Source: Deltaproteobacteria bacterium (lineage in GTDB: Bacteria > Desulfobacterota > BSN033 > UBA1163). From it: a DNA stretch of 36,632 nucleotides. Every line of letters begins with the position of its first letter. Position 1 is the stretch's first letter. The stretch covers positions 1 to 36,632 of the forward strand of contig JAGVBT010000072.1 in assembly GCA_020059605.1 (NCBI GenBank). The letters run 5' to 3'. This document shows, in pieces, positions 3,096 to 17,899 of the stretch. The position numbers and the translations under genes are program-made. The notes beneath the pieces are model-generated. The model was not told where the DNA came from and searched no databases. It saw nothing but the letters and a program-made list of their open reading frames with translations.

Positions 3096-6000
3096 TCAAG
3101 CCGCATGCTCCGGCTTCCCCATGTGCACGAGGATCCGATGCTTGACCAGGCCCCGATCCAATGGGATCACCCCATCCCGCATGCGCTGGCCATCCATCTC
3201 CACCCACAACACACCTCGCTCGCAGCCTTCCGGGTTCTCGACCTGGATCTCGTAGATCGCTTCACCGTGACGATAGCGCAGGTGGAAGCCCTCCCACCAC
3301 CCGGGGATGACCGGGTCCAACCATAGGTGCTCCCCGCGCACCTTCAAACCCAGGACCTCTTCAACCCAGGCTCGGTACATCCACGCCGCCGAACCCGTAT
3401 ACCAAGACCAACCTCCCTGACCGATCCGCCCGGGCAATCGGTACACGTCGGCTGCGACCACATAGGGCTCAAGCCCATAGCGCCACACTGTTTCCGGATC
3501 ACGCGCCCGCTCAATCGGGTTGAGGATGCGCAGCATTTTCGCCGCCCGTGTGCCATCCCCTCGACGTGCCAAGGCCATGGCAAACCACAGGGCGGCGTGA
3601 GTGTACTGACCTCCGTTCTCCCGAACCCCCGGAGGGTACCCCTGCATGTATCCGGGTGACGGCTCCGATCTGTCAAAGGGAGGCATTAAGAGCAGCGCCA
3701 GACCCTCATCCTCGCGAACGAGATGTTTCCACGCTGATTCTAAAGCCCTATCCGCGCGATCCGTGTCGGCGGCTCCACTCAGACAAGCCCAAGATTGCGG
3801 CAGGGAATCAATCTTCGCCTCTTTATTCGCCGAAGAGCCAAGCGGCGTGCCATCGTCGAAGGTCGCCCGAAGATACCACTCTCCGTCCCATCCTGCTCGC
3901 TCGACACGCTGAATCAGCGCCTTTCTAGCTTGTTGATAGGACTGGCTTAGATCTGGCCGACCCAGTCGCTCAGACAACTCGATCATACCCTGAAGCACAT
4001 CCGCCATGAACCACGCCAGCCAAACGCTCTCCCCTTTGCCTCCGGCACCCACCAGGTTCATCCCATCGTTCCAGTCCCCTGTTCCCATCAGGGGCAAACC
4101 ATGAGGCCCAAAGGTCATGCTACGCGTGACGGCGCGCCGGCAGTGCTCAAACAGCGTGGCGTGTTCAAGCGCGACCTCCGGCGTAAAGAACATCTCGTGC
4201 TGATCGCCTTCCAGCGTGGGCCCGTCGAGGAAGGGAACCTCCGTGTGCAAGAGGTCCACATCGCCGGTGGCCCGAATGTATTGAGTGACGACGTAGGGCA
4301 GCCACAGGGGGTCGTCGGAGATCCGCGAGCGGACACCCGCGCCGCTTGGTGGATGCCACCAGTGCTGGACATCGCCTTCTTTGAACTGACGGCTCGCCGC
4401 GAGCAGGATGTGCTGGCGCGCCAGCCCGGGAGACGCGTAAAGGAATGCCATAACGTCCTGCAGTTGATCGCGGAAGCCGAATGCACCGCCGGACTGGTAA
4501 AAGGCGGAACGTCCCCAGATCCGACAGCTCAGGCCTTGGTACAAGAGCCAACGGTTGATCAGAAAGTCCGCTGCCAGCTCGGGGGTGTGCACTTCGATCG
4601 TGCCCAACAGATCATCCCACCACGCTTTCGTATGGGTAAACGCAGTCTCGAGTGCCAAGCCTTCCCGGTAGATGAAAACCCGCTTGTGGACCTCCTCCAA
4701 CGACTCGGCCTGGCCCAACATGCACGTGATCTCAGCCTTCTCTCCAGGAGCGAGTTCAACCGTAACCTGCAGCGCCGCACACGGATCGAGTCCCGCCCCC
4801 GTCCGACGTGATAGCCCGGTCCGCTCCATCGCCGCCGGGCTACTGAGCGAGCCGTTGCGCCCAACGAAGGACGTGCGGTCGCCGGTGTAAGACTTCGCAG
4901 GCGGGTTGATGGCCGCAAAGGCGATCCGATCCCCGTATTCGGGGTGGTAGCGATTCCGAGCGATCAGGGCGTGCACTTCGTCATCCCACTGGGTCAGGAC
5001 GTGCATCTGGGAGGATTCGCGGTTCTCGCCCAGTGTCCACTCCACATAGTACGTCACCGACAGTCTGCGACGCCGGGAGGAATCATTCCTCAACCGCAGC
5101 CTCTGCAGCTTGATCGGCTCTCCCCCGTTCTCATCCACCGGAACGAAGACCGTCAGCTCCTGCTCGATCCCTTGACTGTTATGCTCGAAGACCGTGTACC
5201 CCGTCCCATGCCTTGCCCGATAAGCGGTCTCTTCGCGGATCGGCGACGGGGTTGGCGTCCAGGTGACACCGGTCTCCTCGTCCCGGATGTACACCGCCTC
5301 AGACGGCGGATCCATGACAGGGTCGTTCGACCATTGCGTCAGACGATTGCGCTGGCTGTTGCCATACCAGGTGAAGCCAGACCCCGTTTCGCTGACCAAT
5401 GTGCCGAAGGTGGGGTTGGCAATGACGTTCACCCAGGGTGCAGGCGTGTGGGTGTTGGGGCCGAGATAGATCGCGTATTCACGCCCATCCGGGGTAAAAC
5501 CGCCCAGGCTGTTGAAGTAGGGCAGATCCATGAAGGGCAGCGAAGCCGAAGGCTCCCGGGGAGCCCGTTTCTTGGCCGCGGGTTCCGACATCTCGGGAAC
5601 CTCCACAGGCACGCCCTGGAGTAACGTGCCGCGGGCCGCCACCATCACTACACTCGCAGCGGCCATGAGCAGCGTCAGATCTTCCTCCGGGATTTGATCC
5701 GCGCTGCGCAAGAAAATCCCACCGGGCTGATCCTTCCCCGTATACGTCGAATGCGCCTGGATCAGGTCATCAAGTCGTTGACGCAACGGTTGCTCATAGC
5801 CGACCGCCTCTTCGTTGAGAATCACCAGGTCTGCCGTCAACCCATGCATCCGCCAATAGGTATGCGCCTGGAGGATCTGACGGACCAGGCTGATATCCCG
5901 CGCCTCGCCAACGGTGATCAGGACCATCGGCAAGTCGCCCGAGATTCCATAGGGCCATAAGCCGGCTTGGCCCTTGCGGTTTTCTTCGATGCGTTCGGCG

Positions 6001-9000
6001 GGAGGGCGCAGGAGGGGGTTGGGAAACAGCAGGTGGCTGGCGAGCTGCTGGAAGCGGCGAGCTTCGTCGGGCTGGATGCGAAGCAATCGCAACTCAAGCT
6101 GTGCAGAGGCCCAGGCGAAATCCATCGCCCGATCGATTGTATGGGGATCGCTGTACTTACTCATCAGTCCTAAGACCTGGTGGCGTGTTTCGCCGGCGGC
6201 GAGAACCAAGGAAATCTGAGCACGCTGGCCTGGACCGAGAGTCAGGCCCTGGCGCAGGCTGAGGATCGGGTCCAGGACAAAACCCTGGCTATTGCTGGGC
6301 TTCTGGAGGACCCCCATTGGATTCGCGAGCGTCCGTCCTCGGCCGATGAATCGGCGCCGGTCGGTCTCGAACTGCAAGGCTTCGTCCTCGGCGTGTTCAA
6401 CCGTAAGGCGGTGTGCAACGTAAATGGGTGGGTCGTCTTTCGCGCGAGGTCGGCGGCTCGCAAGGAGGGCTTGATGTTTAGGCACCGCCTCGGTTTGGAT
6501 GAACAGCTTGTTGAATGCCGGATGCTGCCGGTCTGCGTTGTGCGGCGCGAGCGAGAGTTCAACGTAGCTCGTGAGATTGAGACGACGGGTGCGAAGGGAC
6601 CGATTGATCAGGGTGACCCGGCGAATCTCAACGTCATCTTCCGGAGAGACAACGACCTCCGTTTCGATTTGAATGCCGTTATCAGTGCGTCGGAACACGG
6701 CACGGTCGAGTGCGAAGTTGGCGGAGTACGCCTCAACCTTCCCGCCGACTGGGTGATACGTGTTGGACCACAGTCGATCCGAGTCGGCCTCATGGATGTA
6801 GCAGAAGGTTCCCCAGGGATCCTGAGTCCTATCCGACCTCCAGCGTGTGATCTCACAGTCGCCCCATCGACTGTATCCCCCTCCTGCGTTCGTGATCATC
6901 AGGCAATAGCGACCATTGCAAAGGAGTTGGGTTTTGGGCATGCTCGTATGGGGGGTATCGAATTTGCTGACCGATGGGGATACTTCGTCGACGCTCTCCG
7001 GCAAAGACATTCTCTCTCGCGTGGAGATGTGGTGCAGCGGAGACAGGATCGGGATGCGTTCATAGAGCAGGGGCTCAACGGCACGCACGCGTGCGTCGGC
7101 ATAGAAATGGCGCTGGATAGAATTGCCATGGAGGAAGTTGGCCAGTGACAGGAAACCCATGCCTTGATGATGTGCCAGGTAGGCTTGAATGATCAACCCA
7201 CGCTCGCCCTCACGACTCGGTTGACGGCTGAAGTCCATCGCTTCGTAGTAACCGTAATCGTTCAACAGCCCCAGGCCGGCCAGTCGTTTCAGATTCTGCA
7301 CGGCCTCTCTCGGCGCAACGCTGAGCGCCAGAAGGGTGGCATAGGGCGAGACGACCACCTTTTCCTCTAAGCCGCGCTTCAATCCGAGTTCCGGTACGCC
7401 AAAGGCCTTATATTGATAGGTCTTGTTGAGGTCCAGATCCCCGAAGGCAGACTCCGAGATCCCCCACGGCACACGACGCTGACGGCCGTAAGCAATGTGG
7501 ATCGCCACCGCTTCCCTCGCCGCTTTATCCAGGAGCGAGTTCTCCTGGGAGCGTTGGAAAATCAGCGGCATCAGATATTCGAACATGGTCCCGGTCCAGC
7601 TGAGCAGCACCCGGCGCCGACCGATTGCACCGTAGGGTCGACTCATGGAGAACCAATGCTCAACCGGGACATCACCCCGAGCGATGGCGACGAAACTCCC
7701 AAGCCGCGCCTCACTCGCCAGGAGATCGTAGTAGGAGCGATCTAAGCGGCCTTCGGAAACATTGTAGCCGATTGAGAACAACCGTCGTTCGGAATCATAC
7801 AAGAAGCGCATATTGATCGATTCGGATAACTCGCGTCCGTCCTGGATGAGCCGCTCGCCCAAACCCAGGATTTCACCGGCCAGCCATCGCGACCTGGCGA
7901 AGGACCCCAGCAGGCGGTCAAGCCATTCGAAGAGGGGGCGGGCGGCTGGTGGAGCCTGCTCGCGGATCGATTGGAGGATCGGAATACAGTCGATGGACCC
8001 GTGAGCAAGATCGAGAAGCGAAGGCGCGTGAGACATAGCCTGGTGGATGGCGACCAGGGCTTCAAGGCCCAGAGGGGTGATCTCATCCTCCTTTTTTTCA
8101 TCGAGGATTTCGATCCAGGTGAGATAGCGATCCGTGATCCTTAGCCAGGCCGATACCTGCTCCTTCACTTGCCTGGCCCAATAAGCCGCTCCCGTTTCAA
8201 CCTCGGCGGACTCACGAGCTGCATCGGACAGAACCTTTGCGCCACTCTCCACCCGCCGCAGCAGGCGAAGCGCGTCGGCGATACGAGCCGGCGGGGTTTC
8301 CCACGTGCGCATCAGTTCGTTGAGGGCGTGACCATCCAGACCCGAATTGCTTTCCTGTTCGACGACCTGTTTCAGGATTTCCCCGGTATCCCGCAGGCCG
8401 TCAAAAGCTTTCCCATCCAAGATAGGGGCCTGAATCAGCTTGTCCAGTCCGTGCTCCAGTGACCATAAGGCACCCAGCAGGTTTCCGCTGTCTACGGAGG
8501 ACACGTAGCGAGGTTCGAGAGGGGTCAGGGTTTGAACATCGTACCAATTCAGCAGATGGCCCTCATAGCGGTCCAGTTTGCCGATCGTCTCCATGGTATG
8601 GGTCAGCTTTTCGACGACCTGATCCGCAGTCATATACCCGAAATCATGTGCGGATAGTGCGCTGAGCATCCAGAGACCGATGTTGGTTGGACTGGTGCGC
8701 ATCGCCAGTTGATTCTGTGGGGAGACCTGGTAGTTGTCCGGTGGAAGCCAAGACGTGTCATCGCTGATAAAGTCCGAGAAATAGCGCCAGGTTCGTCGTG
8801 CCACCTTCCTCAGGAACCGCTGATCCTTTTGAGGCAACAGTAGTTGCTTTTGCTTCGCCTGCGGTCGAAGGTTCAAGAGCCAGCCGATCAAAGGGGATAG
8901 GAACCACAAGACGAGCCAGGGGCTGGCCATCGCAAAGCTGGATGGCATCCAGCGCTGCACCGCCCAACCCACGATCCCACTGAATAGGCTCGCCAGACCC

Positions 9001-12000
9001 AAAGAAGCTACGAACAATGGCTGCCCACGCGGGGCGCTCCTATGGGTCGCCTGGGCCGAAGTCCACTCGAGCAACCCCCGCCGAGAGATGAGGCGGCGAT
9101 ACCAGACCCGCACAATGGCATCCAGAGCCAGCCAGGCCTGGTGCATAAGTAACGCCGCATCAGCAACCGTCCGCAGCAGGTCGTGCGCCACCTTCGGGAA
9201 GGAGAAGCTCCTCAGCCCATGGCGGGTGGTCGCCATGGTGAAGGGCTGCGCGAAAGGGTGAAAGAGCAACTGCATGGCGACCACAAGCGTAGAGATCCAC
9301 CCCATCTGAGAAGAAGTCAGCCAGGAGGCTATGAGCAAGCCCAGGCTGGTCGTGGGTATCAGGCTCCGGCGCAAGTTGTCGAAAACCTTCCAACGGTCGA
9401 ACCAGGAGAGCAGATTTGGCGCTCGCCGCCCTCCAGGTTGGGGAACCCGCGGCAAAATCCAATCCGAGATTTGCCAATCACCGCGAATCCAACGATGCTG
9501 CCGGCGGGTGTAGTTCAAGTAACCCTGCGGGAATTCATCATAGAGCTCAATATCACTGGCCAGGCCCACCCGGACGTGAGCGCCTTCAATCAAATCATGG
9601 CTCAGCAACCACTCTTCAGGAAACCTTCCGGACAGCACTCGACTGAAGGCGCGCACATCATAGATACCCTTGCCATGGTAGGAGCCTTCACCGGCCAGAT
9701 CCTGATTGACATCGGAAACGGCCTTGGTGTATGGGTCAATACCGACCGCGTCTGCGAAGAGCCGGCTGAAAAGCGAGGCATTCGTGCTCGGAAGCGTTGG
9801 GCTCACGCGCGGTTGGATGATGGTGTATGTGCCTGCCAGGATCCTGCCTGCGGCATCAAAGCGCGGCTGATTGAGAGGGTGTGCCAGGGTCTCGATCATC
9901 CTGCGGGCAGTGCCAAGAGGCAGCTGTGTGTCGCTGTCCAACGTGATGACGAACCTCACATTGGACAGATGATCCGGGTCGCCGACGTATACCAAACGAC
10001 CGGCATCTTCAGGTCGCGTTCCATCGATCAGACGATTGAGTTCTTCTATCTTCCCGCGTTTGCGTTCCCAGCCGATGAATTTCTGCTCGGATTCACTCCA
10101 GGTGCGGTTCCGATGGAAAAGGAAGAAACGCTGACCGCCATACCGATGGTTCAGAGCTTGGAGGCTCCCGGTCATAGTCTGGAGCAGGCTTTCATCGTCC
10201 TCACGATGCGCCTGATCCGAATCGGTGTAGTCCGTGAAGAGACTGAAGAGCAGATTGCTTTCTTTGTTGGCCAGGTACCGGATTTCTAACTTCTCCACTT
10301 CTGCCCGGATTGTCTCCGTGTTCCCTAGAAAACCGGGCACAACGACTAACGTTCGAAATGCGTCAGGAATGCCCGAAACCTCAAAATCCATCTTTGGAAG
10401 GGCTCGGGGTGGAAGGAGCCGCATGACGAGGTAATTCAAAACCTCGAGCGCGAGTTGGCTGGCGGGGATCAGCAATAGGAGGGCGATCACAAGCCGGATC
10501 CCGGGCGTCTGTCCGCGCAGACCCAGCAGGACGATCAGGGAGATGGATACAGCGGAGAAGAGGCTGAGCCCAAGAAAGTAAACTGCAGAATGATGGCGGT
10601 ATACCCACTGCAGGACGCGGAAACGCGGCCCCTCCTGGCAGCCTATGAGCTGCGCAAGGTCGGGCCTTCCTTCGCCTATCAGATAGGTCCCGACGTGGAT
10701 CCGCCGGTCATCTTCCACCGCTTCACGTGCGGCTTGCGTTGCCAGCTCGATGGCGCGTTGTGCGACCTGGTCTTCCGCCTGACCGGACCCACGGGCGAGT
10801 TCTTCAATCGCCCGACGGTAGCGATCGCGTGTGTCAAAATCCATCTTGGAATAAACGCCGGATGGATCGAATCGAAGCAGCCGCTCCACGCGGCTGAGAC
10901 GTTCGAAGATCCCTCTCCAATCCAACAGGGCGAGCTGGCGCAAGCTAGTAAATGCGTTGCCGATAGAGATCTGATCCTTCGTCTGGCGGTTTTGCTCACG
11001 CAGGTTGATCTCGCTCAGGGGCTTGCGGTAAATGCGTTCCAACCAGCTCTGGACCGGCGCTAACACGGCGTCTTCGTCGTAGAGATGATCCACCAGTTGA
11101 GAAGCGAAGTAAGGGCTCGGGCCGGGTTGGGTTGCAGCGAGCTCTGCCAGGATAGAGAAGAGCTGTTTGGGATCTCGCCGGTTGGCCGTAATGAGCCTGT
11201 TCGCCCAGAAGTCGGCGCTCTCACCTTCCCGCAGCTCGGTCAGAGCGCTGGCGGCAAGATCCCGGATGCTCTCAATCAACGCGATGCGCAGCATCTGGGG
11301 GACAGCCCAGAGCTCGCCAATCGTCAGTGTGTGCACCACCGACTGATAGGTCTCAATAAATGCAACGATGTTCTCCCGGTCTACGCGCAATTCCGTATAG
11401 GAGACGAGTTCCTTCACCAGACCGTAGATGCGCGGCAGGCCCCGGTAGGGCTTGTTGGCGAGCGCCGGCAGCTCCTGGTAAAAACGCCGAGGAAGATTCA
11501 GCTGAACGTCGCGGGCGTTGCTCTCGATGACGTACTCATTATCGAGGATCCACTCGGCGGTCGGAGGCGCACCCTGTTCCAGTCGACTCGCTTCGGAGAG
11601 ATCCAGGCATACCTGATGGATCCATTGGTGGGCGTTTTCGACCCGCCTGAGCAACTCAGCGTTCGGCCGAGGCCTTGGGTCCACTTCGTGGTCTATGGCC
11701 AGGCGCTGGACATGCTCCTGGATCTGCGTCGCAGAGAGCGGCACCCCGGGGCTTCGCACTTCTCCAATTGGATTCTCGCGCTTCGGATGTAGGACGAAGA
11801 CTGCGGGCGGGATGTCTCCGGTTTCTCGAAGTACCGCCACTGGGAATCGCAGTGTTTCAATCGGCGACTGAAGGATCAAGACGGTCTCCTCGGACACTAA
11901 CCAACGTGCTTGATCCTCAAGCAGCCTTCGCTCGACACCGTACTTCGATCGCCGTATCCACACCCGACCGAAGAGGGTTCCGATCAACCCACCCGCAAAG

Positions 12001-12272
12001 ATCGCAACCAGGGTAGAGAGGCTTCCGCTCAGAATAGGCGCCGGCCAGTGGAGGACCAGGGATGCAGCGCTGGCGAGGCCTCCGAAAAGAATGGCAGTTA
12101 AGGTAGCCCCGAGAGCACGGCGCCAAAGGAAGGGATCCCGTATGTGTACATCTCCGTCCGCGGTCTTGTGCACCCATGCGGCGCGGCGGAAGCCCCTTCT
12201 CTGCAGCTTCCGTAGAGCTCTACGAGCTTCATCTCGTTCTGCGAAGTAGCCTATGAGGGTGCCTGCTCCCAT
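3096..12272 (-). CDS. ndvB: Cyclic beta-1,2-glucan synthase (NdvB/ChvB type, GT84-GH94)
   Basis: Giant inner-membrane enzyme that polymerises glucose from UDP-glucose into beta-1,2-glucan, trims it by phosphorolysis and cyclises it; products act in the periplasm in osmoadaptation and host or surface interaction. 3058 aa, a little longer than the usual ~2800-2870. Order seen: an N-terminal extension with two membrane helices (about 54-75, 80-102); a membrane pair near 560-620; a GT84 glycosyltransferase with DSDTQLPLG near 778 and QHRWIRGDW near 925-933; more membrane helices (about 975-1010, 1087-1135); a glycoamylase-like domain (about 1500-1680); two beta-sandwich repeats (from about 1770 and 2260); and a GH94 phosphorylase domain with GDWNDGM at 2732-2738. 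AAGGA lies 8 bases before the ATG. The gene is visibly richer in G+C than its neighbours and is bracketed by mobile repeats, so transfer is plausible. ndvB is used by similarity; no biochemical proof is possible here. Confidence 0.93.
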   Translation of the reverse strand: MGAGTLIGYFAERDEARRALRKLQRRGFRRAAWVHKTADGDVHIRDPFLWRRALGATLTAILFGGLASAASLVLHWPAPILSGSLSTLVAIFAGGLIGTLFGRVWIRRSKYGVERRLLEDQARWLVSEETVLILQSPIETLRFPVAVLRETGDIPPAVFVLHPKRENPIGEVRSPGVPLSATQIQEHVQRLAIDHEVDPRPRPNAELLRRVENAHQWIHQVCLDLSEASRLEQGAPPTAEWILDNEYVIESNARDVQLNLPRRFYQELPALANKPYRGLPRIYGLVKELVSYTELRVDRENIVAFIETYQSVVHTLTIGELWAVPQMLRIALIESIRDLAASALTELREGESADFWANRLITANRRDPKQLFSILAELAATQPGPSPYFASQLVDHLYDEDAVLAPVQSWLERIYRKPLSEINLREQNRQTKDQISIGNAFTSLRQLALLDWRGIFERLSRVERLLRFDPSGVYSKMDFDTRDRYRRAIEELARGSGQAEDQVAQRAIELATQAAREAVEDDRRIHVGTYLIGEGRPDLAQLIGCQEGPRFRVLQWVYRHHSAVYFLGLSLFSAVSISLIVLLGLRGQTPGIRLVIALLLLIPASQLALEVLNYLVMRLLPPRALPKMDFEVSGIPDAFRTLVVVPGFLGNTETIRAEVEKLEIRYLANKESNLLFSLFTDYTDSDQAHREDDESLLQTMTGSLQALNHRYGGQRFFLFHRNRTWSESEQKFIGWERKRGKIEELNRLIDGTRPEDAGRLVYVGDPDHLSNVRFVITLDSDTQLPLGTARRMIETLAHPLNQPRFDAAGRILAGTYTIIQPRVSPTLPSTNASLFSRLFADAVGIDPYTKAVSDVNQDLAGEGSYHGKGIYDVRAFSRVLSGRFPEEWLLSHDLIEGAHVRVGLASDIELYDEFPQGYLNYTRRQHRWIRGDWQISDWILPRVPQPGGRRAPNLLSWFDRWKVFDNLRRSLIPTTSLGLLIASWLTSSQMGWISTLVVAMQLLFHPFAQPFTMATTRHGLRSFSFPKVAHDLLRTVADAALLMHQAWLALDAIVRVWYRRLISRRGLLEWTSAQATHRSAPRGQPLFVASLGLASLFSGIVGWAVQRWMPSSFAMASPWLVLWFLSPLIGWLLNLRPQAKQKQLLLPQKDQRFLRKVARRTWRYFSDFISDDTSWLPPDNYQVSPQNQLAMRTSPTNIGLWMLSALSAHDFGYMTADQVVEKLTHTMETIGKLDRYEGHLLNWYDVQTLTPLEPRYVSSVDSGNLLGALWSLEHGLDKLIQAPILDGKAFDGLRDTGEILKQVVEQESNSGLDGHALNELMRTWETPPARIADALRLLRRVESGAKVLSDAARESAEVETGAAYWARQVKEQVSAWLRITDRYLTWIEILDEKKEDEITPLGLEALVAIHQAMSHAPSLLDLAHGSIDCIPILQSIREQAPPAARPLFEWLDRLLGSFARSRWLAGEILGLGERLIQDGRELSESINMRFLYDSERRLFSIGYNVSEGRLDRSYYDLLASEARLGSFVAIARGDVPVEHWFSMSRPYGAIGRRRVLLSWTGTMFEYLMPLIFQRSQENSLLDKAAREAVAIHIAYGRQRRVPWGISESAFGDLDLNKTYQYKAFGVPELGLKRGLEEKVVVSPYATLLALSVAPREAVQNLKRLAGLGLLNDYGYYEAMDFSRQPSREGERGLIIQAYLAHHQGMGFLSLANFLHGNSIQRHFYADARVRAVEPLLYERIPILSPLHHISTRERMSLPESVDEVSPSVSKFDTPHTSMPKTQLLCNGRYCLMITNAGGGYSRWGDCEITRWRSDRTQDPWGTFCYIHEADSDRLWSNTYHPVGGKVEAYSANFALDRAVFRRTDNGIQIETEVVVSPEDDVEIRRVTLINRSLRTRRLNLTSYVELSLAPHNADRQHPAFNKLFIQTEAVPKHQALLASRRPRAKDDPPIYVAHRLTVEHAEDEALQFETDRRRFIGRGRTLANPMGVLQKPSNSQGFVLDPILSLRQGLTLGPGQRAQISLVLAAGETRHQVLGLMSKYSDPHTIDRAMDFAWASAQLELRLLRIQPDEARRFQQLASHLLFPNPLLRPPAERIEENRKGQAGLWPYGISGDLPMVLITVGEARDISLVRQILQAHTYWRMHGLTADLVILNEEAVGYEQPLRQRLDDLIQAHSTYTGKDQPGGIFLRSADQIPEEDLTLLMAAASVVMVAARGTLLQGVPVEVPEMSEPAAKKRAPREPSASLPFMDLPYFNSLGGFTPDGREYAIYLGPNTHTPAPWVNVIANPTFGTLVSETGSGFTWYGNSQRNRLTQWSNDPVMDPPSEAVYIRDEETGVTWTPTPSPIREETAYRARHGTGYTVFEHNSQGIEQELTVFVPVDENGGEPIKLQRLRLRNDSSRRRRLSVTYYVEWTLGENRESSQMHVLTQWDDEVHALIARNRYHPEYGDRIAFAAINPPAKSYTGDRTSFVGRNGSLSSPAAMERTGLSRRTGAGLDPCAALQVTVELAPGEKAEITCMLGQAESLEEVHKRVFIYREGLALETAFTHTKAWWDDLLGTIEVHTPELAADFLINRWLLYQGLSCRIWGRSAFYQSGGAFGFRDQLQDVMAFLYASPGLARQHILLAASRQFKEGDVQHWWHPPSGAGVRSRISDDPLWLPYVVTQYIRATGDVDLLHTEVPFLDGPTLEGDQHEMFFTPEVALEHATLFEHCRRAVTRSMTFGPHGLPLMGTGDWNDGMNLVGAGGKGESVWLAWFMADVLQGMIELSERLGRPDLSQSYQQARKALIQRVERAGWDGEWYLRATFDDGTPLGSSANKEAKIDSLPQSWACLSGAADTDRADRALESAWKHLVREDEGLALLLMPPFDRSEPSPGYMQGYPPGVRENGGQYTHAALWFAMALARRGDGTRAAKMLRILNPIERARDPETVWRYGLEPYVVAADVYRLPGRIGQGGWSWYTGSAAWMYRAWVEEVLGLKVRGEHLWLDPVIPGWWEGFHLRYRHGEAIYEIQVENPEGCERGVLWVEMDGQRMRDGVIPLDRGLVKHRILVHMGKPEHAA

Positions 12273-16411: not shown

Positions 16412-16870
16412 TCACTGCTTAGGAAGAAACTGTGGTAGAATGGTTCCGCCCCATTTCCAAGATAGGGAAGAATCGGAAGCATTAATTGAGGGCGTCAGAG
16501 TGATTGTACTGCCATCCACCTTGCCATGTATATTGGCCACGGTAACTGAAATAACTCCAATGTTCCGATCCACTGAAGCAGCACCAATTCTTCCTATCGC
16601 GACAAGTCCAACGCCTAAGCTCGTTTTAATTTCAGCAATATTTCCGCAATCAGGCCAAACATTGCTGCCTCCATTTAGAACTCGATCATGGTGGTAAATA
16701 TCAAGAGCAGTCACAACATAACTGATCGCATTTGTGACTTCTGTCAGTTTTGCTTTTATTGTGTAATCTATGTACATCGGGATGGCGACGGCTGCCAATA
16801 TGCCTATAATCATAATGACAACCAGCATCTCAATGAGGGTAAACCCTTTTTTATCTATTCTGTCTTCCAT
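16412..16870 (-). CDS. Type IV pilin-like prepilin
   Basis: 152 aa. A short positively charged leader (MEDRIDKKG) is followed by the prepilin peptidase site Gly9/Phe10, with FTLIEMLVVIMIIGILAAVAIP as the N-methylated hydrophobic assembly helix and Glu at mature position 5. The C-terminal domain is a small globular region with repeated hydrophobic strands; only one cysteine is present, so there is no classic C-terminal disulfide loop. It could be a major or minor pilin or a type II secretion pseudopilin. No assembly ATPase, PilC or peptidase gene lies in the window, so the machinery must be elsewhere. A ribosome-binding site AGGGAAG sits 9 bases before the ATG. It is the last gene of the operon behind the riboswitch at 17.8 kb. 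Confidence 0.88.
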   Translation of the reverse strand: MEDRIDKKGFTLIEMLVVIMIIGILAAVAIPMYIDYTIKAKLTEVTNAISYVVTALDIYHHDRVLNGGSNVWPDCGNIAEIKTSLGVGLVAIGRIGAASVDRNIGVISVTVANIHGKVDGSTITLTPSINASDSSLSWKWGGTILPQFLPKQ

Positions 16871-16900
16871 AATATGACTTCCCTATAACTTTCTTTTTCG

Positions 16901-17119
16901 TTACTTTTTTAGGATAGTACCTGGAAGGCGGAATGGCGGCAGATTCTTCAAATCTGAATTATCCTCGCTTTTTCCCTCTGTATCCAGGGATTCACGCAGA
17001 GGTACAAATTTACCTTCAAAGCCATCAATATCATCGCACTTGAGATCGCAGAAAGCATTCTTCTTGAGACATTTGGCATCTTGATAGAATTCACAGTTAT
17101 TTCCGAAAATTATGAACAC
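16901..17119 (-). CDS. Small four-cysteine protein between PilZ and pilin genes
   Basis: About 70 aa. The N-terminal half carries Cys9, Cys17, Cys24 and Cys28 (NCEFYQDAKC, then FCDLKC), a spacing suited to a small metal or disulfide knuckle; the rest is polar. The CxFY and CDL signatures also occur at the N-terminus of the PilZ protein encoded just upstream. The frame starts with GTG at 17119, but the excellent AAGGGAGG site touches that codon, so translation may begin a few codons later at a non-standard AUA or AUU. It lies 20 bp after the PilZ stop and 30 bp before the pilin start, in one operon. Function unknown; a pilus or signalling accessory is only a guess. Confidence 0.55.
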   Translation of the reverse strand: MFIIFGNNCEFYQDAKCLKKNAFCDLKCDDIDGFEGKFVPLRESLDTEGKSEDNSDLKNLPPFRLPGTILKK

Positions 17120-17139
17120 CTCCCTTATCTAAACGATCT

Positions 17140-17679
17140 TTATAGATTGGATGTGATTTCGTCTAAATTATATCGACCGCTGAGAAGCTGTCTTAGCCTC
17201 CAATGATCCTCCTTACTGATCTGAATGAATTTTAATCCATATTGATAACCTTCCCAGTCCTCCTTCCAATAAATTTCCTTCCAGACAATCTCTGCTGATA
17301 CCTCAAAATTGGCCATTTCGTACCCCTTTGGGAATAAGACGGCTATATTTAAATTCGTACCAGCAGGAATGTGTTTAACGGATTCAATGAGAAGACCCAT
17401 CTTACTTCCATTGACAACAAGTGCTCCATGAGCATTAGGGATATTCGTAAACCGGTATTCAAGTGGTAAGTCCAAGACCTTCCGGGGATGTTTTCTCCTA
17501 TTTTTCCCATTCCCATTTTGTTGTTTTTGAGAATTATTTAAAGTGCTTGGTTTTTCACAGTAATTGAGGTCTCCATTGCAAATCGTTTGGCCGCCATCAA
17601 GGTCGCAAAGTCCGAGCCTACGACCCATGTCGATGTTTTTGGAATTTCGATAAAATGAGCATTCCAGTACCTTTTCCAT
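17140..17679 (-). CDS. PilZ-domain protein with N-terminal Cys4 segment
   Basis: 179 aa from the Met at 17679, chosen because AAAGGT lies about 7 bases upstream; a longer frame to 17754 would run back through the terminator. Residues about 1-45 carry four cysteines (Cys7, 25, 34, 41) including ECSFY and LCDLDGG. From about residue 65 comes a PilZ domain, the c-di-GMP receptor fold: RKHPR gives the RxxxR motif and VVNGSKMG gives the (D/N)xSxxG motif, with the usual later strand ending YGLKFIQIS. PilZ proteins couple c-di-GMP to pili, motility and exopolysaccharide. The gene is first in an operon with the small Cys4 protein and a pilin, and its leader is a GEMM-I riboswitch, so the same second messenger may act on RNA and protein. 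Confidence 0.85.
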   Translation of the reverse strand: MEKVLECSFYRNSKNIDMGRRLGLCDLDGGQTICNGDLNYCEKPSTLNNSQKQQNGNGKNRRKHPRKVLDLPLEYRFTNIPNAHGALVVNGSKMGLLIESVKHIPAGTNLNIAVLFPKGYEMANFEVSAEIVWKEIYWKEDWEGYQYGLKFIQISKEDHWRLRQLLSGRYNLDEITSNL

Positions 17680-17711
17680 GTAAATACCTTTATCGGATGA
17701 AGCGGAAGGCC

Positions 17712-17750
17712 TAAAGAAAAGGGCCCGCTTCAATACAGACCACGGGCCCC
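17712..17750 (-). terminator. Intrinsic terminator of the GEMM leader
   Basis: On the minus strand GGGCCCG (17749-17743) pairs with CGGGCCC (17727-17721) and is followed by TTTTCTTT. It lies between the riboswitch aptamer and the PilZ start, so it is the expression platform. The left arm (GGGCCCGTGG) can also pair over 10 bp, with one G-U, with CCACGGGTCC inside the aptamer. Confidence 0.85.
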
Positions 17751-17761
17751 GCAAAATTCCT

Positions 17762-17846
17762 TTTGCTTCGGCAACCCGGCTATCCCGAACCTTCAGGACC
17801 CGTGGCTTTCCGTCACACGATTACTCGTGTTTTGGCTTTATCGGCA
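17762..17846 (-). ncRNA. GEMM-I riboswitch (cyclic di-GMP or 3',3'-cGAMP)
   Basis: Read on the minus strand, the leader holds the conserved parts of the class I GEMM aptamer. GCCGATAAAGCC is followed by a hairpin ACACGA-GUAA-UCGUGU whose GUAA tetraloop fits the GNRA docking loop. Then come GACGGAAAGCC, an ACGGGUCC helix strand and GAUAGCCGGGUUGCCGAAG, the signature 3' end. An intrinsic terminator follows at 17750-17712, then the PilZ gene. In GEMM-I RNAs one purine position near the 5' side decides c-di-GMP versus cGAMP preference; by eye I read an A-rich AAAGCC there, which leaves cGAMP (GEMM-Ib) possible. The alignment is by eye; a covariance-model score would settle class and ligand subtype. 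Confidence 0.85.
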
Positions 17847-17882
17847 TTCTACCTTAAAATTATTTTTCCTGTCTAAACTGTG

Positions 17883-17899
17883 AGCAATTTAAGTGCCAA
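17883..17899 (-). promoter_or_regulatory. Sigma-54 promoter of the riboswitch-PilZ-pilin operon
   Basis: On the minus strand TTGGCACTTAAATTGCT matches the sigma-54 -24/-12 consensus, with GG at 17897-17896 and GC at 17885-17884 separated by exactly 10 bases. Transcription would start near 17872, about 26 bases before the aptamer. Confidence 0.8.

Follow-up and report, generated by a model that had tools for sequence, protein, structure and literature searches.

A sigma-54-type promoter joined to a predicted c-di-GMP OFF switch ahead of PilZ, Cys4 and pilin genes in a lineage of the Desulfobacterota

Positions 1 to 36,632 of contig JAGVBT010000072.1, from a Deltaproteobacteria bacterium (assembly GCA_020059605.1; Desulfobacterota, BSN033, UBA1163), are hereafter called the window. 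Between positions 16,412 and 17,899, its minus strand carries a sigma-54-type promoter, a class I cyclic di-GMP (c-di-GMP) aptamer of the GEMM-I type and an intrinsic terminator, followed by genes for a PilZ domain protein with an N-terminal four-cysteine (Cys4) motif, a second small Cys4 protein and a type IV prepilin. The reading we hold to be likely, on the strength of folding models, is that of a two-key leader, where initiation by sigma-54 would be combined with c-di-GMP-dependent OFF attenuation of the three genes. As for the first key, sigma-54 RNA polymerase and an activator, plausibly PilR-like, would start transcription near position 17872. As for the second, with c-di-GMP scarce, the 5' strand of helix P3 would take the 5' arm of the terminator and the resulting antiterminator would allow read-through into pilZ-cys4, cys4 and the pilin gene; with c-di-GMP plentiful, the ligand would lock P3, the terminator would form and transcription would stop. 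Production of the PilZ receptor and the pilin would thus require both a low level of the messenger and an active sigma-54 signal. The window leader would belong to a set of leaders in the lineage whose genes encode Cys4 proteins, pilins, minor pilins and, in some cases, REC-GGDEF cyclases. The ligand, the sign in the cell and the use of RpoN are what we infer here from the sequences and predicted energies reported below.

The leader and its predicted switch

The elements of the leader are as follows:

17883..17898, minus strand: sigma-54 -24/-12 promoter TGGCACTTAAATTGCT, with GG-N10-GC spacing and agreement with the TGGCAC/TTGCW consensus; predicted start near 17872
17766..17845, minus strand: class I c-di-GMP (GEMM-I) aptamer of 80 nucleotides (nt), G20 / C21-G46 variant (RF03167, RF01051)
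17796..17805, minus strand: P3 5' strand CCACGGGUCC, also the antiterminator 5' strand, forming 10 pairs (one G-U) with 17749-17740
17714..17749, minus strand: intrinsic terminator, GGGCCCG..CGGGCCC followed by TTTTCTTT, with the hairpin at 17749-17721 and a counterpart in the leader of a related genome (G003)
17740..17749, minus strand: switching strand GGGCCCGUGG, by folding either the terminator 5' arm or the antiterminator 3' strand

The near-consensus -24/-12 promoter that a first-pass annotation had placed on this strand is borne out, TGGCACTTAAATTGCT (17898-17883) being the sole exact match to TGGCAYNNNNNTTGCW in the 36.6 kb, with 0.01 expected. The genome encodes rpoN (PF04552, E 1.7e-62) and holds four GEMM-I aptamers by RF01051, all four preceded by sigma-54 sites that score 10/11 or 11/11. 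The aptamer was likewise recognised by Rfam, the comparison on which its earlier assignment to class I GEMM had been made to depend: RF03167 (c-di-GMP-I-GGC, of the GEMM-I clan) gave 66.2 bits against a gathering threshold of 59 (E 1.1e-13, 17845-17766) and was the single Rfam match reported for the window at gathering thresholds, while RF01051 (c-di-GMP-I) gave 72.8 bits against a cut-off of 35 at 17767-17846. RF03167 also gives four aptamers in this genome, three of them above its cut-off.

Folds were computed on the transcript from the predicted start at 17872, at three lengths. When the transcript was cut before the terminator 3' arm, the antiterminator had a probability of 1.0, with -51.1 kcal/mol against -43.5 with P2 and P3 enforced. 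When it ended at the T-run, the best fold combined the terminator with P3 (-60.4 kcal/mol, against -54.9 for the antiterminator) and the terminator pair probability was 0.99-1.0; on extension into the gene this fell to 0.07. The intrinsic terminator expected behind the aptamer is thus found in the folds (17749-17714). It starts 15 nt past the aptamer match and has no strand in common with it, and folding yields two mutually exclusive structures, one of which uses an aptamer strand. Since the 5' arm of the terminator has the P3 5' strand as its alternative partner, ligand binding would free the terminator, and the leader is accordingly predicted to be a c-di-GMP OFF switch under kinetic control.

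Recurrence of the leader within and beyond the class

The aptamer was surveyed with RF01051 over 23 genomes of the class, with matches in 20 of them, in the families f1 (that of the window), f2 and f3. Out of 90 matches, the 80 above cut-off, the window included, were analysed and the 10 below it left out. A sigma-54 site, i.e., one scoring at least 9/11 and no more than 60 nt upstream of the aptamer, was called for 45/80 (34/41 in f1, 3/21 in f2 and 8/18 in f3), at 13-49 nt from the aptamer match, against 0.35% of random 76-nt stretches and 0.24% of shuffled upstream stretches. For the phylum, where the comparison comprised 110 aptamer loci that were the top-scoring among the listed matches and not a random sample, a sigma-54 site was present in the last 76 nt before 20 of these high-scoring aptamers (controls 0.27-0.68%). 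A pattern scan of named genomes, itself selected for sigma-54, returned at least 111 stretches, of which 80 were listed; Deltaproteobacteria, Rokubacteria, Acidobacteria and Omnitrophota are among the matches listed, and a c-di-GMP-I match was found in 76 of the 79 listed loci tested (misses L178, L196 and L207; L224 left out). The pairing of sigma-54 with GEMM-I is a lineage pattern. The first-pass annotation had made the recurrence of the leader in related genomes a matter of verification; the leader does recur there, before Cys4 proteins and, in three genomes, before pilins.

The class loci also differ in their expression platforms. With sigma-54 (45 loci), a strong terminator comes after the aptamer in 35, overlaps the aptamer 3' strand in two and is absent from eight. 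The overlapping pair consists of G012:C156, where by eye the terminator begins beyond the aptamer, and G020:C1:701173, where the sigma-54 site is weak; both were counted. Among the 35 loci without sigma-54, the terminator is downstream in 7, overlapping in 20 and absent from 8, or 1, 26 and 8 after a motif rule moved six loci from downstream to overlapping because the Rfam match had stopped short of the aptamer 3' strand. As the class loci are related and not independent, no p-value is given for these counts. Pairing of a terminator arm with the aptamer, at a mean pair probability of at least 0.5, was found in 31/35 sigma-54 loci with a downstream terminator against 22/210 shuffles, and exact complementarity of at least 7 pairs in 27 of the 28 loci that could be anchored (7 of the 35 were dropped, the anchor motif being missing) against 69/560 shuffles; three f3 loci reach the same exclusion through another strand, CGGAAAGCC with GGCTTTCCG. 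Within the class, then, sigma-54 goes with the layout predicted to be OFF, and its absence mostly with an ON-like layout. In the phylum set, the platforms were 8 downstream, 0 overlapping and 11 without terminator for 19 sigma-54 loci, and 36, 12 and 43, respectively, for 91 loci without sigma-54. A general law equating sigma-54 with OFF was rejected, as it fits the three class families and fails in the phylum sample.

Some aptamer arrangements were observed in passing. Seven GEMM-I aptamers carry internal insertions of tens of nt, palindromic-looking by eye, often with P3 CCACGGGTCC intact: L133 (G000:C148), L129 (G008:C40), L128 (G013:C116), L119, L121, L122 and L123. Three tandem GEMM-I aptamers lie 254 nt apart in G279:C2:145876-146461 (L363), and two Rokubacteria loci (L173, L219) each hold two sigma-54/GEMM-I leaders inside 8 kb.

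The operon genes and the Cys4 families

The genes behind the window leader are the following:

17140..17679, minus strand: PilZ domain protein, 179 residues (PF07238, E 2.8e-6), with an N-terminal Cys4 motif of type A (C7, C25, C34, C41)
16901..17119, minus strand: small Cys4 type B protein, about 70 residues (A2 profile, E 2.9e-21, the profile including the window row)
16412..16870, minus strand: type IV prepilin, 152 residues (PF07963, 1.2e-9; PF00114, 2.1e-6)

The domain matches agree with the three-gene operon proposed earlier, with PilZ first and the prepilin last. The PilZ match reaches 28 bits against a cut-off of 22.5, and the prepilin, with a GFTLIE prepilin signal and a pilin domain, is also above the cut-off of TIGR02532. 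The motifs RxxxR and (D/N)xSxxG are the rule for c-di-GMP binding by PilZ domains; both are intact in the window protein (R62xxxR66 and N90xS92xxG95), so that c-di-GMP binding is to be expected of it. The idea that one messenger might act at two levels was judged right.

Regarding the Cys4 proteins, the annotation was correct in that both a PilZ/Cys4 fusion and a separate Cys4 protein exist, but their cysteine patterns differ. In the window, type A (Cys4A) has the spacing C-x(17)-C-x(8)-C-x(6)-C; an arginine lies four residues past the first cysteine in 24/24 rows of this type. Type B (Cys4B) reads C-x(7)-C-x(6)-CDL-x-C. The middle open reading frame (ORF), that of Cys4B, has no ATG, only GTG at 17119, ATA at 17113 or ATT at 17110. 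Translation from ATT or ATA is suggested, because TTCATAATTTTC, located after a strong Shine-Dalgarno sequence (AAGGGAGGTG in the window, AAAGGAGGTG in G003), is conserved in both genomes (window 17128-17105).

Cys4A (24 members) gave no credible family (best Pfam E 0.027, NCBIfam E 0.016, PDB E 2.1), nor did Cys4B (12 members; best Pfam E 0.006, best PDB E 0.75), whose window copy had no match in the NCBIfam scan; the Pfam family at 0.006, Disintegrin, hit by two members, was rejected as chance cysteine spacing. Cys4A and Cys4B are thus two small protein families without a match to a described family. Across 395 phylum genomes, profile searches, several of which used alignments holding the window's own rows, gave 29 Cys4A matches in 11 genomes and 13 Cys4B matches in 10, all in f1; outside the phylum, the search covered the loci listed from the named-genome scan. 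A mixed PilZ and Cys4 alignment was set aside, as its Cys4-only rows were misaligned. Within the class, Cys4B has 17 matches in 14/23 genomes, and the 11 best all stand behind a GEMM-I leader. The cysteines prompt the guess that these proteins bind metal, and they are probably part of the pilus and c-di-GMP programme. As a separate observation, a third small cysteine-rich protein (LYCT.FKCPHNLFWE...NCCCLI.HPWTPE) lies behind a sigma-54/GEMM-I leader at L093 and L120, its gene being followed by a REC-GGDEF gene at L120.

Genes behind the other leaders

By pattern search, a Cys4 protein lies downstream of 19/80 class aptamers, against 0 on the antisense strand and 0 in the 1 kb upstream; a twentieth locus, G014:C14, has one cysteine changed. 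All 20 belong to f1, which holds 41/80 class aptamers. There are 20 further Cys4 units without an Rfam-level aptamer, assigned partly by eye: five still show a sigma-54 site together with identifiable pieces of an aptamer (G008:C57, G014:C37, G002:C20, G009:C6, G006:C184), nine have sigma-54 alone, five have neither and one is unassigned. Relatives of the window pilin occur in 22/23 class genomes. Thirty pilin loci were fetched and 17 examined; 15 of these were distinct, and in 13 of the 15 the retrieved sequence contains a sigma-54-like site. Pilins stand behind a sigma-54 GEMM-I leader at G002:C24, G008:C40 and G007:C241. The leader also precedes operons that begin with a GspH-like pseudopilin (G007:C273, G015:C226), and REC-GGDEF proteins occur in two leader operons (G003:C43, G016:C65). 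First-gene calls are crude, a gene having been obtained at 37/45 class loci and 72/82 named sites: the commonest Pfam families among the 37 class first genes have only two members each, and among the listed matches of the named scan, whose first-gene set contains some records of f1 itself, fn3 was found in 27/72, others having PKD, Ig or PEP-CTERM.

The recurrence of the trio, which the first-pass annotation had also raised, holds in part. Among 59 genomes (the window's own and 58 others), Cys4 and PilZ are joined in one match only in the window genome and in G003, whose PilZ-Cys4 protein at G003:C43 is 80% identical to that of the window. The G003 leader retains the sigma-54 site, the aptamer, the terminator and the antiterminator pairing, and is followed by PilZ-Cys4, Cys4B, a 75-residue ORF weakly matching TPR and a REC-GGDEF protein; over 5 kb, this locus yielded no prepilin. 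The leader, PilZ-Cys4 and Cys4 therefore recur, but the exact trio with the pilin is ruled out as a conserved unit. If the G003 cyclase were active, c-di-GMP would shut off an operon that makes c-di-GMP, i.e., negative feedback. At five other loci (L082, L074, L076, L129, L128), a hydrophobic peptide of 36-40 residues (e.g., MKLLLTAMISLTFVLGIGMVGLTFFFGKMALAS...) comes directly after the terminator, with a pilin gene next in 3/5.

Alternative readings

Several observations weigh against the two-key leader or its extension to other loci. A sigma-70-like site (10/12) lies at 17875-17846, weakened as an alternative because a start there would strip the aptamer 5' end, and the RF03167 alignment of the window aptamer has few P1 pairs. 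The longest transcript, extending into the gene, reverts to the antiterminator (0.93), so that the switch must be under kinetic control. In the class, four sigma-54 loci fail the pairing test, including one of the window's own genome (C148), whose exact-complementarity match sits in inserted sequence; G016:C65 is without a strong terminator; and three of the seven loci with a downstream terminator and no sigma-54 also show arm-aptamer pairing. In the phylum set, such pairing occurs in 1/8 sigma-54 loci with a downstream terminator versus 19/36 without sigma-54. As for the proteins, the AlphaFold model of Cys4A has a predicted local distance difference test score (pLDDT) of 48.7 and no usable fold.

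Among the other explanations, the sigma-54 match may simply be of the kind found before pilin genes in general; its closeness to GEMM-I would then be a side effect of pilin operons, with no coupled module involved. We regard this as unlikely: f1 pilin loci without GEMM-I do have sigma-54-like sites, as do 9/20 Cys4 units without an Rfam-level aptamer and with no aptamer trace, but the pairing is also seen before Cys4 and GGDEF genes and, in the named scan, before fn3, PKD and PEP-CTERM genes, and the class sites keep to the 13-49 nt given above. An alternative ligand would be 3',3'-cyclic GMP-AMP (cGAMP), sensed by aptamers of the GEMM-Ib type. Following the Vc2 numbering, we take A20 to mark cGAMP-type and G20 c-di-GMP-type GEMM-I aptamers; the window aptamer does not have A20, and position 20 is G in 4/4 aptamers of its genome. 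A20 was read in 2/80 class and 7/110 phylum aptamers, the motif search being unable to place the position in 11 and 7, respectively. G20 goes with C21-G46 in 53/80 class aptamers and with G21-C46 in 83/110 phylum aptamers, i.e., positions 21 and 46 co-vary between the two sets. Even with cGAMP GEMM-I riboswitches present in Geobacter (PMC9262584, PMC8835794, in the parts of these accounts available), sensing of cGAMP here seems improbable, and c-di-GMP is, from the base at position 20, the more likely ligand. Equally improbable is a switch of ON sign, comparable to the pilM riboswitch of Geobacter, in which the ligand prevents termination: one is documented on pilus genes of G. metallireducens (PMC9262584, available portion), and, of the 27 class loci that have a strong terminator and no sigma-54 site, 20 have it overlapping the aptamer 3' strand (26 after motif correction), but the window terminator, 15 nt past the aptamer match, shares no strand with it and has a 5' arm complementary to P3. 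Lastly, the leader could be a relic, with the operon run from another promoter and the aptamer decaying, as insertions seen by eye in some f1 aptamers (C148 of the same genome; G008:C40; G013:C116) might indicate; with the window aptamer above both curated cut-offs and all the leader elements retained in G003, we deem this very improbable indeed.

Beyond the two-key leader itself, a wider proposal is offered tentatively, and we are inclined to doubt it as a whole: in the class, sigma-54 and a c-di-GMP OFF riboswitch would form a transferable AND-NOT cassette, other GEMM-I leaders would mostly be ON and driven from other promoters, and the Cys4 families would be signature targets, acting as metal-binding partners in the c-di-GMP pathway of the type IV pilus, as the PilZ-Cys4 fusion suggests. 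If so, two gene sets would respond oppositely to increasing c-di-GMP.

Comparison with known systems

In Pseudomonas, Myxococcus and Geobacter, pilA is controlled by PilR and sigma-54. In the window, too, a type IV pilin gene lies downstream of a promoter of sigma-54 type, but with a predicted c-di-GMP attenuator between promoter and genes. Its aptamer passes the cut-offs of both RF03167 and RF01051 but carries C21-G46. As far as the consulted portion of PMC9262584 describes them, two riboswitches are closest. The c-di-GMP-I riboswitch Cd1 of Clostridioides difficile flagellar genes is a transcriptional OFF switch; similarly, the window combines a class I aptamer with a predicted OFF sign, and in both systems, by folding in the window, the terminator can form alongside the aptamer, with an antiterminator as the competing structure. 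Unlike Cd1, the window antiterminator is predicted to use the P3 5' strand, under a sigma-54-type promoter and with PilZ, Cys4 and pilin targets. The pilM riboswitch of Geobacter metallireducens is ON, binds cGAMP and has a terminator using an aptamer strand; the window shares with it a GEMM-I-type leader on type IV pilus genes, but is predicted to be OFF, to respond to c-di-GMP and to terminate without an aptamer strand. That portion of the pilM account makes no mention of a pairing with sigma-54.

Elsewhere, c-di-GMP riboswitches lie beside PEP-CTERM genes in Methylophaga (PMC12530212), as riboswitches lie on surface-protein genes at many listed loci of the named scan; the promoter type is not stated in the accessible part of that account. 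By the terms searched, RpoN is absent from the available text of the Geobacter cGAMP work (PMC8835794, PMC6456294), and the G. bemidjiensis genome paper (PMC2996986), in its available text, names GEMM and RpoN, but separately. The passages seen of PMC12452182 and PMC11124144 name c-di-GMP-I-GGC with no promoter link, and those of PMC11960120 use a riboswitch as reporter. Within the texts and extracts covered, where subscription journals are thinly represented, the literature search found no work on sigma-54 promoters paired with c-di-GMP riboswitches. The parts are of known kinds; the apparent novelty lies in how regularly a lineage combines them, in the sign predicted and in the two small protein families that accompany them. 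The arrangement joins two regulators usually studied apart, namely an activator-gated sigma factor and a c-di-GMP RNA attenuator, and it predicts that high c-di-GMP would halt the making of a c-di-GMP receptor and a pilin, the reverse of the pilM ON switch. For the two orphan Cys4 families, the tie to this regulon offers a practical route to their function.

Away from the operon, the window also holds on the minus strand (3096-12272) an ORF of 3058 residues that by eye resembles a glycosyltransferase of the cyclic-glucan-synthase type, the scanned part of which gave no strong NCBIfam match.

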